A DNA stretch of 52,877 nucleotides, taken from Prolixibacteraceae bacterium (lineage in GTDB: Bacteria; Bacteroidota; Bacteroidia; Bacteroidales; Prolixibacteraceae). Below, piece by piece: positions 11,839 to 52,877 of the stretch. Position 1 is the first letter of the stretch, and the number at the start of each line of letters is the position of its first letter. The notes below the pieces were generated by a model. It saw nothing but the letters and a program-made list of their open reading frames with translations, ran no database searches and was not told the DNA's origin. A program made the position numbers and the translations under genes. The stretch covers positions 1 through 52,877 of the forward strand of contig JABGRN010000021.1 of the NCBI GenBank assembly GCA_018648265.1, written 5' to 3'.

Positions 11839-13014
11839 TTAACGTTGATTTCCAAAAGCATCAACATCGAATGAGAGGGTAAACCTCAAGGTATTTTCCA
11901 GTGGGTGGTTTCTTTGTGTTGGCAACAAGTACGAAAAATCGAGGGCAAAAACATTTAGCCTTAAACCGGCACCAGCTGTTAAAAATTTACGGTTACCCTT
12001 GTTTTCGTGTTCATAAAAATAACCGGCACGCAGTGCAAACTGTTTGTTATACCAATATTCAACACCAACCGATAAGTTTATTTCCTGCAGCTCCTCCGAT
12101 AAACCACCTGGTGCATCGGCAAACGATGAAAAAATACCTGAAATTGGTGATATGTCAGAATTAATCCCTCCTGGATAAATAACATCGCCATCATCAAAAC
12201 CAAGTGTGTCTATTGGAGGCGTTGGTACCAGTAATTTATTTGCTTCAACCGCAAAAGTAATACTGTTGTATTCATCCATTTCTGTGGTGTAAGAAGCTCC
12301 CAATTTTAATGTTGTCGGGATAAAATCTTTTACTTCTCCATCGGTGTACGAAATTTTTGCACCAATATTCTGAATATTAATTCCGGCAGAGAATATATTC
12401 TCACGTCGATTTGCCCTAAATTCATTGTATAAATAAAAGGCAACATCGGCAGCAAAAGAGCTTCCTGCATTGGATTCGATCCCATTAATTAATTGCCCCC
12501 CAGTTAAATCGGAACGTATGTACCTCAGTGCTACTGCCCCCGAAAAAATTTCAGAAAGTAAACGGGTGTAACCCAAATCCAGTGCAAATTCGTTTGGGCT
12601 TTGTTGCCCCATGTATTCTCCATATTCGCTTGTAAAAACAATGTCGCCAAGTGAAAAATAACGCAATGAACTACTTATAGTTTGTACTTCATCTAATTTT
12701 TTATAACCTGCAATATAGGCTAAATTAATATCGTTAACCAAGGCACGCAACCAAGGTGAATAAGATAAACCAACACCCATATCGCTTTCGATGAAAGCAT
12801 ATTTTGCAGGGTTCCAATGTTGCGAACTTACATCGGGACTGGTTCCCACCCCTACATCACCCATTCCACCCGCTCTCGAATCGGGAGTGATTGATAAAAA
12901 AGGAACTGCCGTTGTAATGGTATTTGCCCCCGAAGTGGTGGCTTGTGCATTTACACTTTCTGAAAGAGTAACTATCAATGCTATAACAAATAAAAGTCGA
13001 ATTAATTTTACCAT
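11839..13014 (-). CDS. porV: Type IX secretion outer-membrane shuttle protein PorV (LptO)
   Basis: A 391-residue outer-membrane beta-barrel of the FadL-like PorV family. A signal peptide ends near VNA-QA (residue 24). The mature N-terminus contains TTAVPFLSITPDSRAGGMGDVGVG (key part SITPDSRAGGMGD), the diagnostic PorV/PorQ segment, followed by SQHWNPAKYAF and many amphipathic strands up to a C-terminal aromatic-containing strand. PorV collects cargo from the Sov translocon and delivers it to the PorU sortase on the cell surface. It sits immediately downstream of porU, as in Porphyromonas, but a good promoter at 13038-13066 suggests it can also be transcribed alone. Confidence 0.93.
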   Translation of the reverse strand: MVKLIRLLFVIALIVTLSESVNAQATTSGANTITTAVPFLSITPDSRAGGMGDVGVGTSPDVSSQHWNPAKYAFIESDMGVGLSYSPWLRALVNDINLAYIAGYKKLDEVQTISSSLRYFSLGDIVFTSEYGEYMGQQSPNEFALDLGYTRLLSEIFSGAVALRYIRSDLTGGQLINGIESNAGSSFAADVAFYLYNEFRANRRENIFSAGINIQNIGAKISYTDGEVKDFIPTTLKLGASYTTEMDEYNSITFAVEANKLLVPTPPIDTLGFDDGDVIYPGGINSDISPISGIFSSFADAPGGLSEELQEINLSVGVEYWYNKQFALRAGYFYEHENKGNRKFLTAGAGLRLNVFALDFSYLLPTQRNHPLENTLRFTLSFDVDAFGNQR

Positions 13015-13125: not shown

Positions 13126-16100
13126 TTAGTGCGCAACAATCATCTTTCCTGATTTAGAAGCAATTACACCATCGTTATTTTGTGCTGTTATTTTATAAAT
13201 ATAGATCCCATTCCGAACCTGAATGCCTGTTTCGTTTAGATCCCATCTCACCGGATTACTGCTTATTCCGTTAGATCCAATTTGCCCGGTAAAATAATCT
13301 ATTCGCCTTCCGACCTGATCATAAATCTCGAATATTGCATCGAGTGTGGCATCAGATTGATTATGGCTAAATGTAAAAAAAGTATAATCGTTTACCGGAT
13401 TTGGATAGTTGCTGACTTCTGAAATAAAAAACCCGCCCGATACAACAAATTCAATTTCTACTTCAGTAGAATTGTTGGCTACGTCCCAAACTTTTAATAT
13501 TAACGAATGTTTTCCTATTGAAAGATCTCTTAATGGGTACGAAATCGTTCCACTGGTATAATCGTCGGTGTTTGCCTGGTAAAAATTATTCAGCACTAAT
13601 ACATTTGAATAATCATTGTCTAAAACCGCAGTTATGTCGTGGCCAATTCCGGTGCCTACAGTGTTAATTCCATTTTCATCAGAAATTAATGCTAACATTG
13701 TTGGGTTTTTACTGGTATTACCGCCCGGAACAAAATCTTGCGAATCCATAAACAGTTGTACTTGCGGTCCCTGATTATCCGAAATTTGAGAACCTGATGT
13801 ACCCCCAATCACAAAATTCTCGAATGCCCCGTGTGCATCAACCACATTGTTGTCGGCATAATATACCACTTTACCTTCACCCAAATTGTATGAAATATCT
13901 TTTGGGACTACAAAACTGAATGAAAAATCTCCATTGGTAACGCTTGCCAAACCTTTGTAAATCACGTTTTCCTGAACTTTAAAATCCATTGGGTTTTGTC
14001 CGCCATTTCCCAGGGTTTCCATAATAATTGCCTTGTCGTAAACTGTTGGGGTAATTTTACCCGAAAAATTATCAAGTTTATTACCAAGATTATCGGCAAT
14101 ATAACCTGAAATAGTAATTTTTTGCAAAGCCCCAATTGTGTCAGGAATCCCAGTCGCGTTTTTCTGATTTATGGTTGTTGTGGTAACCTTATTTTGAGGG
14201 TACGAAAGTTTTAAGGCAGGGTCGGCCAATAAACTAAAATTCCTTTTATTAGTTGTATTAATCGTATTGACTTTTGCCAGTCTCATAATATCTCCCATCC
14301 GGTAATGATCCCCGTTTGCATCTTTTTCAAAAACAAAATTGTAAAAACTACGGCTCAGCAAAAAATTGGAATATGCAAACACGACCCTGGTTGTTGAAAA
14401 CAGCCCGATACCGCCACCACTGGGGTTGAACAGAACATACTCACCTGCCGATGTGTCGTCGGCATCGAAGCGGCTAAATTCGCATGTAGCAGTAACAAAA
14501 ATAGGCAGTGTATTCGAATTCGACCATGAATTAATATTACTCACATCAAGCACATGTTCGTCAGCCATAAAACGTTCGTTTGCATGGCCAACGTAATTTA
14601 AAACCAGCACTCCGTCTTTTACGCGTTTATTTATGGCGTCGGTTACGTCTGGGTATCGTTCGCCGGCCGGTGTTGCTTCTTGTAAAAATGCATCAAAATA
14701 AATTTTATCTGTTACAAACTCGGTGTGATTATCGTTTATATGATTGGCCAGTTTTTCCGAATCCGACATGTGTAAATTACCGTCTTCATCGTCGCCAATA
14801 AAACAAACTACATTTCGCCAGGTACCCAAAGCTTCAGGTGAATAATAATTTAATATTTTGTTTACAACAAGCTCAGCCTGAAATGTTGAAGAAGCAGGAA
14901 TCCGGCCAATTCCCAGATCAACCGCCCCATTGTACACACTTTCATTGTTATCGAGCATAATAAAATAATCGTCGGTAATAAACGAGGCAACAGGGTTTAG
15001 CGAATTGTCTGACTGAAATGTTGGGATAAAAACCTGGCTTCCCGGATTAATATTTTTATTATCGTAGCTACCATCTCCAAGAAGCAGGACATATTTTAAA
15101 ATATCATCGCGGTCGTAAAACATTTTTATAAAATTCCGGATGCCAGTGGCACTTTTGCCCCCTGAACTAAACTCATTGTAAATTTTATCAGTTTGAACAA
15201 CTTCAACTTTCATCCCATCGTAGTTCCTGTGAAAATCTGCAAGAGCGTTTGCCGGGCTTAAAAAATTAGGATGGGTAATTATTAAAAACTCAGGTGTGTT
15301 TAAACTATGAATATCCTGGTTTTCAATTTCTCCAACCAACTCAGGTTCCGGAAAACTCCCACTGAGGTTAAAAGCACAGTATTCCCGCAATTCATTTGCA
15401 GGGCGTTTTCCTTTTGCAATGCTGCCGATTATTTGGAGTGGTACTTCTTTAACATTATTTAAATCACTTACATCGAATACAACTGTTTCTGAAGAACTGT
15501 TTTCTATTGAGAATTCAATAATATTATCATTTCCTGTCGATGTAATATCCCGAAAAAATAATGCTTCATCTTCATTTATAAGTTTTTTTCGGTAATTAAG
15601 TTCAACAAAATCGAGCCAGGCTTCCGAACTACTGTTGCTTGCCAGGTAATTTAACGAAAGTGAAAGTTGATCCCCTGATATGTTTCCTGCAATCCTGATT
15701 TCACGTTCATCGGCAAAAAGCGATGTGGGATCGCTGGTGTTCACTTTATAAAAACTAAGTTTGCCTACATTAGATTGGTTTATTGAAACTGACATTTCGG
15801 AGGTAGAAGAGGACCGGGCTGCAGCATTTACTCGAATTGAAACATTATTCAAATTGTCTAAATTTTTTAAATCAAATTCCAGGGTTTTGTTGGTTCCATT
15901 AATAAATTTATCACCAAACCATTGTTTTCCCGAATGCAATAAATTGTATTTTTCAAATTCGTATAATTCGTATGCATCGAATGTTGAAATTGTATGAGTT
16001 GAGGTCTCTTGGATTTCGGGTAAAAGTTCAATGTTTTTTGGTACACCAACATCTTCTGTTAAAAAGAAATATCCTTTTGTTGAATAATTATTTACATCGT

Positions 16101-16866
16101 GTTTAAAATACATCCCGCTGTTATCGGGTTGCCAGGAATTTGTTCCTGGCCCATAAAAAAACAAGCAGTCAATACCATTATTTTTTCCATGCCACACTGC
16201 ACTTTGGTTTAAATCGTCGTACTCAATATCTGCAGGGTTTTCCGGCAAACTGAGCCCACCGCTACCAAATAAATTAACCTGTGAGGGGTTTGAAAATCCC
16301 CACTCCGATAATAAAGAATATGGGATTTTATATAATCCATTTCCAGAGATACTGATTTTTACCCAATGCCCGCTTTTTAATACCGATTCATTTTTCCAGC
16401 CATAATTTAATACAGAAGCAGTCTTAGTTTTTATCGGAATCTGCTTTAATTCAAATGATTTTAAAAGTAGGATTTTATCACCACGCTTAATTATCGGATA
16501 TACCTGGAATTCAAGTTTTTGATTATCACCCGATTTTAACCTGAATTTTTCAATTTTTATCTCATCAGGTAATTCATTCAAAAAAGAAATTTCATCGTCC
16601 AAAACTAATTCTTCAAAAACCTCATTATCAATTACTACACGAAAATCCTGTGTAGGATTTGTCAGGGGATAAGTTTTTAGAAATACCGGGATCGAAGAAT
16701 TTACGTCAGGGAAAACTGCGTTTTCAAATGTAAAAGCGATTTTATTTTTGTCCGAAGAATTTAAGTTTGCAGGTATTTCCCAATTTAACGTAATAAAATC
16801 TTTTTGAACATCGTTTACTGAAAAACCGACGATAATTATAAATAATAAAAAAATATATTTCTTCAT
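13126..16866 (-). CDS. porU: Type IX secretion sortase PorU (C25 peptidase family)
   Basis: A protein of 1246 residues when started at the ATG at 16866, which gives a clean signal peptide (MKKYIFLLFIIIVGFS); the frame remains open to 16956 but the extra 30 residues look non-native. The central region is a gingipain-type C25 cysteine peptidase, with catalytic His761 in NYVGHANE and Cys795 in TATCEFSRFD, preceded by LLGDGSYDN and GIGRIPA segments. The C-terminal 95 residues (from NYPNP near 1153) form a T9SS type A-like sorting domain. PorU removes the C-terminal signals of T9SS cargo and attaches it to A-LPS at the cell surface. It is divergent from gldJ and upstream of porV. Confidence 0.94.
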   Translation of the reverse strand: MKKYIFLLFIIIVGFSVNDVQKDFITLNWEIPANLNSSDKNKIAFTFENAVFPDVNSSIPVFLKTYPLTNPTQDFRVVIDNEVFEELVLDDEISFLNELPDEIKIEKFRLKSGDNQKLEFQVYPIIKRGDKILLLKSFELKQIPIKTKTASVLNYGWKNESVLKSGHWVKISISGNGLYKIPYSLLSEWGFSNPSQVNLFGSGGLSLPENPADIEYDDLNQSAVWHGKNNGIDCLFFYGPGTNSWQPDNSGMYFKHDVNNYSTKGYFFLTEDVGVPKNIELLPEIQETSTHTISTFDAYELYEFEKYNLLHSGKQWFGDKFINGTNKTLEFDLKNLDNLNNVSIRVNAAARSSSTSEMSVSINQSNVGKLSFYKVNTSDPTSLFADEREIRIAGNISGDQLSLSLNYLASNSSSEAWLDFVELNYRKKLINEDEALFFRDITSTGNDNIIEFSIENSSSETVVFDVSDLNNVKEVPLQIIGSIAKGKRPANELREYCAFNLSGSFPEPELVGEIENQDIHSLNTPEFLIITHPNFLSPANALADFHRNYDGMKVEVVQTDKIYNEFSSGGKSATGIRNFIKMFYDRDDILKYVLLLGDGSYDNKNINPGSQVFIPTFQSDNSLNPVASFITDDYFIMLDNNESVYNGAVDLGIGRIPASSTFQAELVVNKILNYYSPEALGTWRNVVCFIGDDEDGNLHMSDSEKLANHINDNHTEFVTDKIYFDAFLQEATPAGERYPDVTDAINKRVKDGVLVLNYVGHANERFMADEHVLDVSNINSWSNSNTLPIFVTATCEFSRFDADDTSAGEYVLFNPSGGGIGLFSTTRVVFAYSNFLLSRSFYNFVFEKDANGDHYRMGDIMRLAKVNTINTTNKRNFSLLADPALKLSYPQNKVTTTTINQKNATGIPDTIGALQKITISGYIADNLGNKLDNFSGKITPTVYDKAIIMETLGNGGQNPMDFKVQENVIYKGLASVTNGDFSFSFVVPKDISYNLGEGKVVYYADNNVVDAHGAFENFVIGGTSGSQISDNQGPQVQLFMDSQDFVPGGNTSKNPTMLALISDENGINTVGTGIGHDITAVLDNDYSNVLVLNNFYQANTDDYTSGTISYPLRDLSIGKHSLILKVWDVANNSTEVEIEFVVSGGFFISEVSNYPNPVNDYTFFTFSHNQSDATLDAIFEIYDQVGRRIDYFTGQIGSNGISSNPVRWDLNETGIQVRNGIYIYKITAQNNDGVIASKSGKMIVAH

Positions 16867-46541: not shown

Positions 46542-47969
46542 ATGAAAATCAACCTAATTCTACTAATCCTAACATCCATTCTATTTGTAGGCTGCCAACA
46601 AATCCCGGAATCCCAAGATCCAAATATCATCTTAATTATGTGCGACGACCTTGGCTGGGGAGATACAGGATTTAATGGAAATGAAATTATCCAAACTCCC
46701 AATCTCGATTTTCTGGCAGGGAAAGGAATTACATTTAACCGGTTTTATTCGGCATCGGCAGTTTGCTCTCCTACCCGCGGAAGTTGTTTAACGGGCAGAA
46801 ATCCTTATCGATACGGAATTCCAACGGCAAATGCCGGGCACATGAAAATTGAGGAAATTACCTTGCCCGAATTGCTAAAAGAGCGTGGGTATTCAACTGG
46901 TCATTTTGGGAAATGGCATCTGGGAACGCTCACTACAAAAGTGAAAGATGCTAACCGTGGTAAACCCGGAGATTCAACAAATTATAGTATTCCAACCATG
47001 CACGGTTACGACTCTTATTTTGTAACCGAATCGAAGATACCAACTTATGACCCAATGTGGAAACCAAAAATGTTTGATACTGACAAAGGCGAAGGTTTAA
47101 GATATGGTTGGAAAGCGGTTCAAAATAAAAATGATGCTGAAAAATATGGTACTCATTATTGGAAGGGAGTTGAAAATGCCGAAACAACAAATATGGAGGG
47201 TGACAATTCAAAAGTAGTAATGGACAGGGTGATTCCATTTATTGAGAATTCAGCCGATAATAGTAATCCTTTCTTTTCTGTAATTTGGTTTCAAACACCG
47301 CATTTACCTGTTGTAGCTAACGAAAAGATGATGGCAGAATACAGTAAATATTCGCATCAGGAACAAATTTATTTCGCAACAATTTCTGGAATGGACGAAC
47401 AAGTTGGGCGACTTTGGGAAAAACTTGAGGAACTAGGCCAGGCAGAAAATACAATGATATGGTTTTGTAGCGACAATGGCCCGGAAAGAGATACACCGGG
47501 TAGTTCCGGTCCGTTTCGAGAAAGAAAACGTTCGCTTTACGAAGGGGGTGTTCGCGTGCCCGCGTTTTGTGTTTGGCCAAATAAAATTGAGGCAGATCAA
47601 AAAACAGATTTCCCTGCATTTACCAGCGATTATCTACCAACAATAACAGAAATTCTTAATCTTGATTATCCTGTTGAAAGACCGATTGACGGAGTCAGCC
47701 TTTCAAAATTATTAAACGGAGAATCTGTTAATAGAGAGAAACCAATGGGTTTTCAATATGGAGGGAAAATGTCTTGGGTGACACAAGAATTCAAATTAAT
47801 TAGTACTGACAAAGGAGAAACTTTCGAATTATACAATCTTATAGACGACCCAAGTGAAAAAGAGAATATTATAGAAGAGAAACAGGAGTTGGCAAAACGA
47901 ATGAAAAAAGAACTGTTAAATTGGATTGAATCCTGTAAAAAATCGGCTAATGGTGCCGACTATTTATAA
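46542..47969 (+). CDS. Sulfatase (S1 family, Cys type), first of three
   Basis: A 475-residue lipoprotein (lipobox FVGC, Cys18). The catalytic cysteine, Cys75 in C-S-P-T-R, matures to formylglycine; metal ligands start with D35-D36 (MCDDLGWGD) and continue with WFCSDNGPE in the middle. LPELLKERGYSTGHFGKWHLG is the usual sulfatase Lys/His segment (core GKWHLG). The C-terminal part has the expected small domain. The specific sulfate ester cannot be told from sequence. It heads the run of three sulfatases with gaps of 12 and 22 bp to the next two. Confidence 0.93.
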   Translation: MKINLILLILTSILFVGCQQIPESQDPNIILIMCDDLGWGDTGFNGNEIIQTPNLDFLAGKGITFNRFYSASAVCSPTRGSCLTGRNPYRYGIPTANAGHMKIEEITLPELLKERGYSTGHFGKWHLGTLTTKVKDANRGKPGDSTNYSIPTMHGYDSYFVTESKIPTYDPMWKPKMFDTDKGEGLRYGWKAVQNKNDAEKYGTHYWKGVENAETTNMEGDNSKVVMDRVIPFIENSADNSNPFFSVIWFQTPHLPVVANEKMMAEYSKYSHQEQIYFATISGMDEQVGRLWEKLEELGQAENTMIWFCSDNGPERDTPGSSGPFRERKRSLYEGGVRVPAFCVWPNKIEADQKTDFPAFTSDYLPTITEILNLDYPVERPIDGVSLSKLLNGESVNREKPMGFQYGGKMSWVTQEFKLISTDKGETFELYNLIDDPSEKENIIEEKQELAKRMKKELLNWIESCKKSANGADYL

Positions 47970-47981
47970 AAATCTAAAAGA

Positions 47982-49526
47982 ATGAAAACACATACAATTT
48001 TATTTTCAACACTATTTTTATTTGGAATTTTATCGGCTTGCTCCGAACCTGAAAAGCCGTTAAAAGAACCAAACATTCTTTTTATAATGACTGACGACCA
48101 TTCGTACCAAACATTAAGTGCTTACAGTAATAAATTAATTGAAACTCCCAATCTCGATAGAATTGCAAACGAAGGAGTATTATTCAAAAATAGTTTTGTC
48201 GGAAACTCAATCTGCGCACCCAGTCGTGCCACTCTTCTAACAGGAAAACACACGCATAAAAACGGGCAAATAAATAATTCTCATACATTCGATGGGGGGC
48301 AAGTAACTTTCCCAAAACTGTTGCAACAGGCAGGTTATCAAACTGCATTGGTAGGAAAATGGCACTTGAAAAGCGATCCCACTGGATTCGACTACTGGAA
48401 TATTCTGCCCGGACAAGGTCAATACTACAATCCCGATTTTATTGAAATGGGTGAGAAAAAACAATTTGAAGGATATTGCACAACTTTAACTACCGATTTC
48501 GGTTTGAACTGGTTGGAGAATCGCGATAAAGAAAAACCATTCTGTTTACTACTTCATCACAAAGCACCCCACCGAACATGGCAACCCGACACAATTCATT
48601 TTGCTGAATTTAAAGACAAAGTTTATCCGGTTCCGGAAAACTTTTTTGATAATTATGAAGGCCGTTTGGCAGCTGCTGAACAGAAATTAAGTATCCGTGC
48701 TGCAGACATGGATATTCAGTATGATTTGAAAATGGAAGATTCGGAAGGTCGGATTGTATCTCGTTTCCCACGGATGAAACACACAAGTAGAATGAATGAA
48801 TTACAGAAAAATGCATGGGAGAAACATTACAAACCAATTACCAAAGATTTTCTGGGAAAAGATCTGGAAGGGGACGAATTATATCTTTGGAAATATCAGA
48901 GGTACATGCGTGATTATCTGGCCTGCATTCGTTCTGTTGACGAAAATGTGGGACGGGTTTTAGATTATCTAAAAGAAAATGGTTTGGACGAAAACACACT
49001 TGTTGTTTATACTTCCGACCAGGGATTTTATATGGGAGAACACGGTTGGTTCGATAAAAGATTTATGTACGAACAGTCGTTGCGTACTCCCTTGTTAATG
49101 AGACTTCCAAAAGGTTATTCTAAAAAAGGTGAAATTGCAGAATTAGTTCAGAATATCGATTTTGCACCAACTTTTCTAGATTTTGCAGGAGTTGACATCC
49201 CTGCTGAAATTCAGGGAAAATCGTTAAAGCCAATTCTTTCAAAAGAAAAAAATATTGAATGGCGAGATGGGATTTACTATCATTATTATGAATTTCCGAA
49301 TGAACATGCCGTGAAACGACATTATGGAATTAGAACCGACCGTTATAAATTAATTCATTTTTATAATGATATTGATGAATGGGAATTATATGATTTACAA
49401 ACCGATCTGGAAGAAATGGATAATCTGATTAACTCCGAAAAACATGTAGAAATAATTATCGGTTTAAAAACGGAATTAACTAAATTGCAAGTGTTGTACG
49501 AAGACACTGATCGATCTACATATTAA
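47982..49526 (+). CDS. Sulfatase (S1 family, Cys type), second of three
   Basis: A 514-residue lipoprotein (lipobox LSAC, Cys20). Catalytic Cys78 in C-A-P-S-R, metal pair D38-D39 (MTDDHSY), GKWHLKSDPTG, HHKAPHRTW and YTSDQGFYMGEHGWFDKRFMYE (core SDQGFYMGEHGW) are visible. This DQGFxxGEHG form and the following Lys-Arg-x-x-Tyr-Glu are characteristic of the glucosamine-6-sulfatase-like branch of S1 sulfatases, although the substrate is not proven. An insertion around residues 215-290 with an Asp/Glu-rich segment is a distinguishing feature. 12 bp after the first sulfatase. Confidence 0.93.
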   Translation: MKTHTILFSTLFLFGILSACSEPEKPLKEPNILFIMTDDHSYQTLSAYSNKLIETPNLDRIANEGVLFKNSFVGNSICAPSRATLLTGKHTHKNGQINNSHTFDGGQVTFPKLLQQAGYQTALVGKWHLKSDPTGFDYWNILPGQGQYYNPDFIEMGEKKQFEGYCTTLTTDFGLNWLENRDKEKPFCLLLHHKAPHRTWQPDTIHFAEFKDKVYPVPENFFDNYEGRLAAAEQKLSIRAADMDIQYDLKMEDSEGRIVSRFPRMKHTSRMNELQKNAWEKHYKPITKDFLGKDLEGDELYLWKYQRYMRDYLACIRSVDENVGRVLDYLKENGLDENTLVVYTSDQGFYMGEHGWFDKRFMYEQSLRTPLLMRLPKGYSKKGEIAELVQNIDFAPTFLDFAGVDIPAEIQGKSLKPILSKEKNIEWRDGIYYHYYEFPNEHAVKRHYGIRTDRYKLIHFYNDIDEWELYDLQTDLEEMDNLINSEKHVEIIIGLKTELTKLQVLYEDTDRSTY

Positions 49527-49548
49527 GAATATCTAAAACCTAATTAAA

Positions 49549-51102
49549 ATGAAATCAAACAACTCGGGACTTAAATTACTTGCTTTAGTTTTAATTGCGA
49601 CAACTATAATTAGCTGCAACCAAAGTACAAACCAAAAGGAACAATCTGCAAAACCAAATATTATTTACATTTTGGCCGATGATTTGGGTTATTCTGAAGT
49701 TGGTTGCTACGGACAGGAAAAAATAGAAACTCCAAATATTGATTTACTTGCGGCAAACGGAATGCGTTTTACACAACATTATGCCGGGGCCCCTGTTTGC
49801 GCACCATCCCGTTGCGTTCTTTTAACCGGAAAACATTTGGGTCACGCGCAAATTAGAGGAAACGACGAGTGGGCATCGAGAGGTCCTGTTTGGGATTTTG
49901 AAGCCATGGCAAAAGACCCGAATTTGGAAGGGCAGCGGCCACTTAAACCGGGGACTAAAACAATTGGAAGGCTTTTGCAAGGTGCTGGTTACAAAACGGG
50001 TGTTGTTGGAAAATGGGGACTTGGTGCACCGCTAACAGAAGGTATTCCAAATAAACAAGGCTTCGATTTTTTTTACGGTTACAATTGCCAGCGGCAGGCA
50101 CATACTTTTTTTCCGGTTCACCTTTGGAAAGACACAACAAAAGTATTGCTGAATAACAAAATGGTGCCTCCACGGACTAAACTTCCCGAAGATGCCGATT
50201 TGTACAAACAGGAAACGTATGCTGATTTTTGGCTCACCGATTATTCTTCGGAGCTGATGCAAAAAGAAGTAATCAATTTTATTAAAGAAAATAAAGAACA
50301 ACCTTTTTTTATGTATTATGCCAATCCCATTCCGCATAATCCCTTGCAGGCTCCTAAAAACTGGATCGCTTATTATGTCGAAAAATTTGGCAATGAAGAT
50401 CCTTACGACGGTAGCCGTGGTTATTTTCCACATCGCTACCCACATGCTTGTTATGCGGCAATGGTTTCGTATTTCGATGCACAGGTTGGAGAGATTGTGG
50501 CAACATTAAAAGAACAGGGATTGTACGAAAACACGATAATCATGTTTAGCAGCGACAACGGTCCAACGTACAGTGGAGGTGCAGATTCCCCATGGTTCGA
50601 CAGTGCAAAACCATTTAAAAGTGAACGTGGCTGGGGAAAAGGAAATGTTACAGAAGGAGGAATCCGTGTGCCAATGATTGCCCAGTGGCCTGGAAAAATT
50701 GAAGCAGGTTCTGAAACCGGCCTGATTTCAGCTTTTTACGATGTGCTGCCCACAGTTTGCGATATTGCAGGAATTGAAGCCCCTGAAGATATTGATGGAA
50801 AAAGTTTTCTTCCAACTCTTATAGGAAAAAAAGGGCAGGAAGAACATGAGTTTTTGTACTGGGAATTTCCAGCTTCAGGTGGGCAACAGGCAATTAGAAT
50901 GGGAAAATGGAAAGGAATCCGTAAAAATATATTCAAAGACAGCCTTCAGGTTCAGTTATATAATTTAGAAGAAGATATTCAGGAATTGAATGATGTTTCA
51001 AAACAAAATCCCGAAGTAGTTCGAAAAATTGAAGCTCTTTTTATTCAGGAACATACATCTGCAGAAATTGAGAGATTTAAGATTAAACAGTTAGGTGATT
51101 AA
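49549..51102 (+). CDS. Sulfatase (S1 family, Cys type), third of three
   Basis: A 517-residue lipoprotein (lipobox IISC, Cys23). Catalytic Cys84 in C-A-P-S-R, metal pair D44-D45 (LADDLGYSE), VGKWGLGAPLTEGIPNKQGFDFFYGYNCQ (core VGKWGLG), YANPIPHNPLQAP and MFSSDNGPTY are present. The GKWGLG variant and HNPLQAP segment are typical of the arylsulfatase A-like group. It ends the run; 350 bp of non-coding DNA follow. With the other two sulfatases it suggests a substrate carrying more than one type of sulfate ester. Confidence 0.93.
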   Translation: MKSNNSGLKLLALVLIATTIISCNQSTNQKEQSAKPNIIYILADDLGYSEVGCYGQEKIETPNIDLLAANGMRFTQHYAGAPVCAPSRCVLLTGKHLGHAQIRGNDEWASRGPVWDFEAMAKDPNLEGQRPLKPGTKTIGRLLQGAGYKTGVVGKWGLGAPLTEGIPNKQGFDFFYGYNCQRQAHTFFPVHLWKDTTKVLLNNKMVPPRTKLPEDADLYKQETYADFWLTDYSSELMQKEVINFIKENKEQPFFMYYANPIPHNPLQAPKNWIAYYVEKFGNEDPYDGSRGYFPHRYPHACYAAMVSYFDAQVGEIVATLKEQGLYENTIIMFSSDNGPTYSGGADSPWFDSAKPFKSERGWGKGNVTEGGIRVPMIAQWPGKIEAGSETGLISAFYDVLPTVCDIAGIEAPEDIDGKSFLPTLIGKKGQEEHEFLYWEFPASGGQQAIRMGKWKGIRKNIFKDSLQVQLYNLEEDIQELNDVSKQNPEVVRKIEALFIQEHTSAEIERFKIKQLGD

Positions 51103-51452: not shown

Positions 51453-52877
51453 ATGAAGCAATTTACTTTACTAAAAGCCTTTTTGGCAATTGTATTAGTT
51501 GTCGGAATAGGAGTTCATGGTCAAGCTCAGATTCCTAAAACCCCAACTGTTCAAATGCTCCTAACCGATGGTGCAGGCAATCCTGTTTCGGACGGTGCTT
51601 ACAATGTAACTGTTGCATTATACAATGTTTTAACCGGAGGAGCTGCTCTTTGGAATGAAACCCAAAGTGTAAATGTAAGCGACGGTTTAGCAAATATTGT
51701 TTTGGGAACCGTAACACCCTTGAATTTAAAATTCGATATACAATATTTTGTTGGATTGTCAGTAGCGGGAGGTGTGGAATTATCTCCTCGCCTTGCCTTG
51801 AATCCGGCAACTTATAGTTTATCTGCGCGTGCCGTTTATGGTTCTACAAATGTTTTTCCGGCCGACGGCGATGTTGGTGTAGGTACACTCTCACCCCTTG
51901 CAAAAGTTGATATTGAAGGGAAATTACGAATTGCAGATGTTCCTGATGTTGATACTTTTTTAAGGGTTTTAGTTCAGGATACTTTAAACGACCAGATTGT
52001 AAAATCAATCCGGCTTGATTCTCTGGTACATGTTATAAATAAAGTTAGCTGGCAATTTTGGTGGTGGGCATGGCCAGGCCCCCCAGGCCCCGTTGGTCCA
52101 ATGGGTCCGATGGGTCCTCCAGGCCCACAAGGAATCCAGGGGCCAAGGGGGCTTCCTGGAGTAGATGGTATTGACGGTCTTGATGGATTAGATGGATGGG
52201 ATGGAGTAGATGGTATTGATGGAGTGGATGGTATTGACGGTCTTGATGGATTGGATGGATTAGATGGGCTTCAAGGACCTCAAGGGGATCCCGGCGTAGT
52301 AGGAATTCCAGGTGAGGATTTTGTTGTGCGCGATGCAGCAGGTAATATTGTATTCTGGGTTGATGCCGCAACGGGAGAATCATACCACATGGGATACGAA
52401 TGGTTTGAAAGTGGTTTATGGGTTGGAGCCGATCCTACCGGAGCAGGTGTGGAGATAGATCCTGACGGGACTATTACTATTTACGATAAAGATGGCTTTC
52501 CGGTGAGCATATTTTATCCCGACGGTACTTCCTGGCATAGTGGAAGGGAGACTTATGAAGGTGGAATAGAAATCCCACTTGAAGGCGGAGGCAAAATTGT
52601 CATCGATTCAGATGGAATTACTATTTATGATGCTGAAGGATTTCCTGTAACTACATTTTATCCCGATGGCACTTCTTTTCATTATGGTTTAGAAACATAT
52701 TATGGTGGCCTTGAAATTCCTCTTGCCGATGGAGGAAAAATTGTAATCGGTTCAGATGGAATTACTATTTACGATGCCAACGGATTTCCGGTAACTACAT
52801 TTTATTCCGATGGTACTTCTTATCATTATGGTTTAGAAACATATTATGGTGGCCTTGAAATTCCTCTTGCCGATGGA
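51453..52877 (+). CDS. Partial surface protein with collagen-like triplets and 48-residue tandem repeats
   Basis: An open frame of 475 codons that runs off the window end with no stop. It starts at ATG 51453 with a signal peptide (LLKAFLAIVLVVGIGVHGQAQ). Residues 25-200 resemble phage-tail-fibre or adhesin-like head domains (DGAYNVTVALYN, LSPRLALNPATYS, VGVGTLSPLAKVDIEGKLRI). Residues 209-289 are 27 uninterrupted Gly-X-Y triplets, from GPPGPV to GIPGED, 12 consecutive ones being Gly-X-Asp. From 323 to the end are 48-residue repeats built around DGITIYD and FPVTTFY. It is a probable cell-surface fibre secreted by Sec and, conceivably, T9SS; the C-terminal sorting signal would be outside the window. 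Collagen-like triple helix formation is inferred. Confidence 0.85.
   Translation, partial: MKQFTLLKAFLAIVLVVGIGVHGQAQIPKTPTVQMLLTDGAGNPVSDGAYNVTVALYNVLTGGAALWNETQSVNVSDGLANIVLGTVTPLNLKFDIQYFVGLSVAGGVELSPRLALNPATYSLSARAVYGSTNVFPADGDVGVGTLSPLAKVDIEGKLRIADVPDVDTFLRVLVQDTLNDQIVKSIRLDSLVHVINKVSWQFWWWAWPGPPGPVGPMGPMGPPGPQGIQGPRGLPGVDGIDGLDGLDGWDGVDGIDGVDGIDGLDGLDGLDGLQGPQGDPGVVGIPGEDFVVRDAAGNIVFWVDAATGESYHMGYEWFESGLWVGADPTGAGVEIDPDGTITIYDKDGFPVSIFYPDGTSWHSGRETYEGGIEIPLEGGGKIVIDSDGITIYDAEGFPVTTFYPDGTSFHYGLETYYGGLEIPLADGGKIVIGSDGITIYDANGFPVTTFYSDGTSYHYGLETYYGGLEIPLADG
52077..52319 (+). repeat. 27 Gly-X-Y triplets (collagen-like tract)
   Basis: 27 in-frame nine-base units starting GGN encode residues 209-289 of the partial surface protein. 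Nine are Pro/Met/Gln-type triplets, then 12 Gly-X-Asp triplets (X is Val, Ile, Leu or Trp), then six mixed ones. At DNA level, units such as GGTATTGAC and GGATTAGAT recur, giving a nine-base periodicity prone to slippage. Confidence 0.9.
52419..52877 (+). repeat. 144-bp tandem repeats (48 residues each), open at window end
   Basis: Units begin at 52419, 52563, 52707 and 52851, exactly 144 bp apart. The first is diverged in its N-terminal third; the second and third are close, sharing most codons; the fourth is cut by the window end after 27 bp. A shorter, degenerate relative (FVVRDAAGNIVFWVD onwards) lies just upstream. The shared core is DG-ITIYD-x-x-GFPV-x-x-FY-x-DGTS. Near-identity of the later copies implies recent duplication. 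Confidence 0.9.

Follow-up and report, generated by a model that had tools for sequence, protein, structure and literature searches.

A probable MAT-type fibre gene at a Prolixibacteraceae contig gap and its linkage to the gene of a candidate type IX-sorted anchor

The window analysed here, 52,877 nucleotides in its full length, starts at the first base of contig C160 (JABGRN010000021.1), which belongs to the 5.58-Mb genome of a Prolixibacteraceae bacterium (GCA_018648265.1). Its last gene encodes a putative surface fibre. The open reading frame (ORF) starts with an ATG at 51453 and is open up to the last base of the window, which directly adjoins a run of 100 N (contig 52878-52977; L004:1878-1977); the gene continues past this gap, as P0002, to a stop at contig 54153. 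Thus the gene does run off the window, as the original prediction had it, and the architecture proposed there (signal peptide, N-terminal domain, 81-residue Gly-X-Y stretch and 48-residue repeats) is borne out by sequence and structure model. The parts before the gap are:

51453..52877 (+): fibre gene, open 5' part (P0001, 475 aa)
51453..51524 (+): signal peptide, predicted from the hydrophobic N-terminal helix, with a predicted end
51525..51872 (+): N-domain (ND) of the mosaic adhesive trimer (MAT) type, residues 25-140 by profile match, related to the N-domains of Bdellovibrio MATs
51873..51920 (+): VGVGTLSPLAKVDIEG segment, residues 141-156, read from the sequence and of low confidence in the structure model
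52077..52319 (+): collagen-like stretch, residues 209-289 (27 Gly-X-Y triplets without a break)
52320..52445 (+): degenerate first repeat segment, residues 290-331
52446..52589 (+): 48-residue repeat unit 1, residues 332-379
52590..52733 (+): 48-residue repeat unit 2, residues 380-427
52734..52877 (+): 48-residue repeat unit 3, residues 428-475, ending exactly at the assembly gap

In the single-chain structure model, residues 2-21 form a hydrophobic helix, consistent with a signal peptide, and residues 31-119 of the ND form a β-domain (pLDDT block means 78-97). No Pfam or NCBIfam family matches the ND over its cut-off, and among PDB sequences the ND profile found only a weak match to PkwA (E 0.0014, 29 columns). 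The VGVGTLSPLAKVDIEG segment is of a type common in tail-fibre-like proteins. The Gly-X-Y run is a single 81-residue stretch, and its match to Pfam Collagen is not a chance one, because its score, 55.6 bits, exceeds the cut-off of 27.2 (E 4.4e-15). The best 25 of the 37 PHROG matches of P0001 lie on or overlap this collagen part; they were not taken as a sign of phage origin.

After the collagen part, self-identity at a lag of 48 residues is 0.54 (0.15 at the best lag besides 48 and 96), the TRF period is 144 bp, and units 2 and 3 are 92% identical. The model of residues 331-470 predicts an extended, open β-structure of about five strands per unit (10-residue pLDDT means 73-93) rather than a compact globule. 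For the repeats, Foldseek and VIA on P0001 returned propeller, RHS, OspA and TCP10 sheets that superposed poorly, so that we retain only the description ‘open β-structure’. A search with the 48-residue repeat gave matches in 6 proteins among the best 7999 candidates scored, and at that sensitivity the repeat looks restricted to a lineage.

Codon and repeat unit are both complete at the last base before the gap, and the next unit starts in phase (GKIV...) with the first base after it. Because codon and repeat phase match on both sides, the piece lost in the gap is probably a whole number of 144-bp units, perhaps none, and the 100 N need not reflect its true length. A stop or frameshift just beyond the window, which had been named as a possible flaw, was not seen, although a gap to which the assembly assigns no true length sits at that very place. 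Past the gap, P0002 holds four more units, with 62-90% identity among themselves or with units before the gap, followed by one degenerate unit, a C-terminal domain (CTD) of ~130 aa and the stop. The expectation of a long extracellular fibre is supported. The expectation that the fibre is a substrate of the type IX secretion system (T9SS) is not: P0001 and P0002 match no T9SS sorting family at E<=1, the fibre ends in the CTD and a stop without a type A, B or C sorting domain, and a type A domain is found instead on the protein of the next gene.

That next gene starts 19 bp after the fibre stop and encodes P0003, a secreted protein of 169 aa that passes the cut-offs of both type A sorting models (TIGR04183, 34.4 versus 23 bits; PF18962, 31.5 versus 27). 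Its N-terminal part is a domain of ~60 aa with the pattern ..SGGG...GTxGQ..IG....GFW, hereafter GQ, which matches no Pfam family and no PDB chain. Judged by sequence signs, then, the T9SS substrate is not the fibre itself but the product of a gene coupled to the fibre gene.

The fibre gene is also present in two same-genus genomes, G012 and G027, of 60 related genomes searched. In G012 the fibre is one unbroken ORF of 955 aa followed by its own small T9SS gene, and in G027 it is split across two contigs, with the 3' part again preceding a small T9SS gene. A second pair in the own genome, at C126, consists of an ND and CTD protein lacking collagen and repeats, and then a small T9SS gene. The partner gene therefore adjoins the CTD-ending fibre in each of the four genus loci in which the 3' end is present (C160 and C126 of the own genome, G012 and G027). 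P0004 (754 aa) carries the whole fibre architecture in a single chain. The own genome holds two further ND proteins: a fibre at C38 that ends in Peptidase_S74 and adjoins a weak GQ gene, and a fourth at C157 (L174:1822-2928) that ends in Fib_succ_major, on a contig with no GQ match. Behind the ND, the tips in this genome are thus CTD (C160, C126), Peptidase_S74 (C38) and Fib_succ_major (C157).

To place this gene pair more widely, 198 Bacteroidota genomes were surveyed at E<=1e-4 for GQ, E<=1e-6 for ND and E<=1e-8 for CTD, which gave 41, 123 and 15 matches, respectively. Thirty of the 41 GQ matches, in 20 genomes, have an ND match on the same strand no more than 6 kb away, as compared with ~0.3 such neighbours expected by chance (a rough estimate at 3.5 Mb per genome). 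With the own genome excluded, the count is still 27 of 38, and opposite-strand ND-GQ pairs within 6 kb were absent from the 198 genomes. We had also considered GQ as a partner of the CTD. This reading was dropped because a GQ neighbour accompanies only 2 of the 15 CTD matches, which both belong to the own genome (coordinates compared by eye), while the ND accounts for the linkage.

The same dependence on the ND is seen in a set of 80 CTD loci drawn from across phyla. There, 24 loci contain 25 separate GQ ORFs (E<=1e-4), all on the strand of the fibre; one of these is doubtful (L071, whose frame overlaps the CTD gene) and was left out of the adjacent set. Of the 80 loci, 21 have GQ no more than 1 kb from the fibre gene, and in L062 and L075 GQ is on the same strand but more than 1 kb away. 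GQ adjoins 17 of 44 CTD ORFs that have an ND versus 1 of 34 that do not (Fisher p 1.2e-4; 17 of 95 CTD ORFs, whose start falls outside the locus, were left out of this test). In L050, a candidate natural CTD-GQ fusion, the reading frame crosses a short run of N, and this locus was not counted as a pair.

The GQ profile used for these loci was built on 15 seeds, 11 of which came from CTD loci (12 with G012, which is L045). Because so many seeds came from the tested loci, the profile was rebuilt from 5 Bacteroidota sequences. Against 2940 ORFs, the rebuilt profile recovered two of its own seeds, and the next 11 matches (to E 5.2e-4) were all adjacent genes. The 15-seed profile found no match at E<=1e-4 among reversed ORFs. 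Over 28 hand-picked ND-GQ pairs, ND and GQ distances correlate (r 0.46, reached in 0 of 5000 permutations), a correlation that includes species descent. As a separate observation, the ND in L166 (G220:C43) stands at the end of an ORF of 691 aa; a GQ ORF of 3098 aa overlaps this ORF in a different frame, possibly through a frameshift.

Most of the GQ proteins scanned carry a T9SS sorting domain. The type A cut-off is passed by 23 of 31 GQ proteins scanned against NCBIfam, namely P0003 and three sets of ten (7/10, 8/10 and 7/10), a subset of GQ proteins that includes some without an adjoining ND gene. Others carry a dockerin (L053), choice-of-anchor U (L152) or no recognised module. The NCBIfam model PamT (‘CPR-type pilus protein’, cut-off 240 bits) gave partial matches, to the GQ region only, in 3 of 30 GQ proteins (L053:5527-6012, 29 bits; L142:3861-5243, 18.5; L150:4713-5300, 16.9). 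The own genome has no PamT match over the cut-off, and the name was not found among the papers listed in our literature search. GQ may therefore also occur in pilus-like surface systems of bacteria of the candidate phyla radiation (CPR), to judge from these partial matches.

A relationship of the ND to a known domain emerged from the MATs of Bdellovibrio bacteriovorus, a predator that recognises its prey by such fibres. The main text of the MAT study describes a β-rich domain of ~130 aa after the signal peptide in all 21 MATs, tips of S74 or other type, and an N-domain thought to bind a surface element, which its discussion leaves unnamed (PMC10769870). Our comparison covered 120 of 154 MAT-like proteins found, the named ones being mostly Bdellovibrio. 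The ND profile, which contains no named Bdellovibrio sequence, matches the N-terminus in all 120 at E<=1e-3 and in 115 at E<=1e-5 (E for 120 sequences; best reversed control 0.003); its 8-seed forerunner had matched 72. One of the matched proteins, P0233, matches the solved MAT Bd2133 over residues 663-1031. With hhalign, ND and MAT N-domains align at a probability of 94.3% (E 1e-7, 63 columns only), while the CTD and GQ controls reach 0.1%. Because of the 120 matches and the hhalign result against its controls, we conclude that the ND is, at the level of sequence profiles, a distant relative of the MAT N-domain. Neither CTD nor GQ was found in the 120 listed proteins.

This relationship reverses the ‘tail-fibre-like head’ of the original prediction: what is conserved and of MAT type is the N-terminal end, and the likeness to phage lies in the CTD past the gap. 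The CTD has no match in Pfam, NCBIfam, PDB or PHROGs, and its model resembles the tips of phage tail fibres and tailspikes. Its family is large, with 1793 of 1855 candidates matching at E<=1e-3, that is, at least 1793 proteins, and distant relatives occur in large viral contigs. Near-identical 224-aa ORFs in two viral contigs (L129:4692-5366 and L132:4680-5354) end in a CTD relative; the L129 protein has no Pfam match.

The tip can differ in GQ-linked fibres as well. Ten GQ-linked ND fibres without CTD were scanned outside the own genome, fibres cut by the edge of the fetched stretch being left out. Three end in S74 (L134, L139, L142) and one in Collar (L144, 1.7 kb from its GQ gene), and in six no cap exceeded a cut-off. 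L145 and L148 have β-roll or UspA1 repeats but no cap, and L138, L168, L171 and L172 gave nothing over a cut-off.

Taken together, the fibre is probably a trimeric mosaic surface adhesin, as far as the analysis of its parts can tell. We lean, with no great margin of confidence, towards a MAT-type adhesive fibre that is held by a T9SS-sorted anchor, the GQ protein gripping the ND. Sec would export the fibre and P0003 into the periplasm. Proteins with a type A domain are carried to the cell surface and fixed there by the T9SS, and the GQ protein would be taken to the surface and fixed through this domain. The ND would then be the cell-proximal end of the fibre, bound by the GQ domain; from the gene linkage we infer such binding. 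The collagen and the 48-residue β-repeats would form the shaft that extends the tip, and the CTD would be a distal trimerising cap that meets the target. The modelled fold suggests that the CTD tip binds a ligand, likely a carbohydrate and probably a glycan on that target.

Several observations weigh against this reading. The step least accounted for is the crossing of the outer membrane by a fibre that has no signal of its own for it; the fibre may be exported with or after its partner, or by another route. Moreover, of the 123 ND genes only 32 are accompanied by GQ within 6 kb, which leaves 91 that are not; 43 of the 69 strongest ND matches lack such a neighbour, and both gene orders of ND and GQ occur. 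The low share of ND genes with a GQ neighbour and the two orders would suit a shared operon for two secreted proteins of the surface or matrix that are independent of each other: they would have regulation or function in common without binding, and the fibre would be exported by other means. Though this deserves serious consideration, we regard it as unlikely, since the linkage recurs across 20 genomes of Bacteroidota as well as in loci from other phyla, GQ follows the ND and not the tip, and ND and GQ distances correlate.

The fibre could also be the other way round, with the CTD anchoring it in the manner of a trimeric autotransporter, the N-domain as the outward adhesive end and the T9SS neighbour as an accessory. 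YadA-type anchors lie near the C-terminal end, as does the widespread and conserved CTD, and 3 of its 120 relatives listed are named ‘trimeric autotransporter adhesin’. Yet the CTD models as a soluble β-domain like a phage tip and has its distant relatives in those viral contigs, P0002 matches no YadA-type anchor family at E<=1, and tips vary while the ND stays; we consider this arrangement improbable. The resemblance of the CTD to phage tips, the collagen profile matches among phage fibres, and a CTD relative, P0127, that matches phrog_17490 (a phage family without assigned function) at E 2.4e-6 over a stretch including its CTD would all fit a recently acquired receptor-binding fibre of a prophage or of a tail-like injection particle (extracellular contractile injection system, eCIS). 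Against such an origin, the fibre has a signal peptide, inspection by eye (in place of a phage-library scan) recognised no phage structural gene among the ORFs at contig 44000-63897 on both sides, and the same gene pair occurs among cellular-looking genes (by eye) in two other genomes of the genus. We give this origin very little credence.

If the GQ protein does hold the ND, a broader possibility is that it serves as a general surface anchor for MAT-type fibres, in a cassette of two genes, ‘socket and fibre’, that would occur in many phyla; this we put forward tentatively, at somewhat under even chances. The ND would plug into GQ, the socket would carry the module of its lineage (T9SS type A, dockerin or others), and phage-like tips would be swapped distally, all of which we propose jointly and at the same tentative level. 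If true, this would name the surface element left open by the MAT study; in any case the linkage provides a concrete, small and expressible candidate for it. The linkage also places MAT-like fibres well outside predators. It brings three domain families that Pfam does not name (ND, GQ and CTD) into one context and offers roles for them that can be put to the test; one of the three counts at least 1793 proteins. Among the papers listed in our literature search, we found no description of the fibre and GQ gene pair, judged by titles and abstract openings.

The own genome encodes the T9SS core proteins PorU (1259 bits) and PorV (443.7 bits), both in the window:

11866-12915 (-): PorV gene
13135-16383 (-): PorU gene

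Directly 5' of the fibre gene lie three consecutive sulfatase-like lipoprotein genes (46542-51102, +; by eye), and a related sulfatase is also found near the G027 fibre gene (by eye). Elsewhere in the genome, in a lipoprotein-like protein (L006:550-1653; G000:C124), haem motifs of the cytochrome c7/c3 type follow a short stretch that is collagen-like, though under the Pfam cut-off; by its sequence, this protein may be a multihaem cytochrome carried on a Gly-X-Y stalk.

Among known systems, bacterial collagen-like adhesins (Scl and Lcl models) have the Gly-X-Y region in common with the fibre, with the match confined to the collagen part and far under the family cut-offs. Trimeric autotransporter adhesins have a C-terminal YadA-type anchor, a family that P0002 lacks. 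T9SS type A proteins (TIGR04183, PF18962) resemble P0003, whereas the fibre has no sorting domain. The CTD model is likened to the tips of the Pam1 tailspike (7eea), AP22 gp53 (4mtm), R2 pyocin (6ct8) and Sf6 (2vbk); unlike these, the own CTD has no sequence match in PDB, Pfam or PHROGs and sits on a cellular secreted protein. The closest likeness is to the MATs, with which the fibre shares a signal peptide followed by a β-rich N-domain that is similar in size and related in sequence to a detectable degree, a long shaft, and a conserved N-terminal end combined with differing tips, including S74. It differs from them in its Bacteroidota host, in a shaft of collagen and 48-aa repeats, in a CTD tip without counterpart in the 120 listed MAT-like proteins, and in the adjacent GQ gene with its T9SS domain; the main text of the MAT paper contains neither ‘collagen’ nor ‘type IX’ (PMC10769870).
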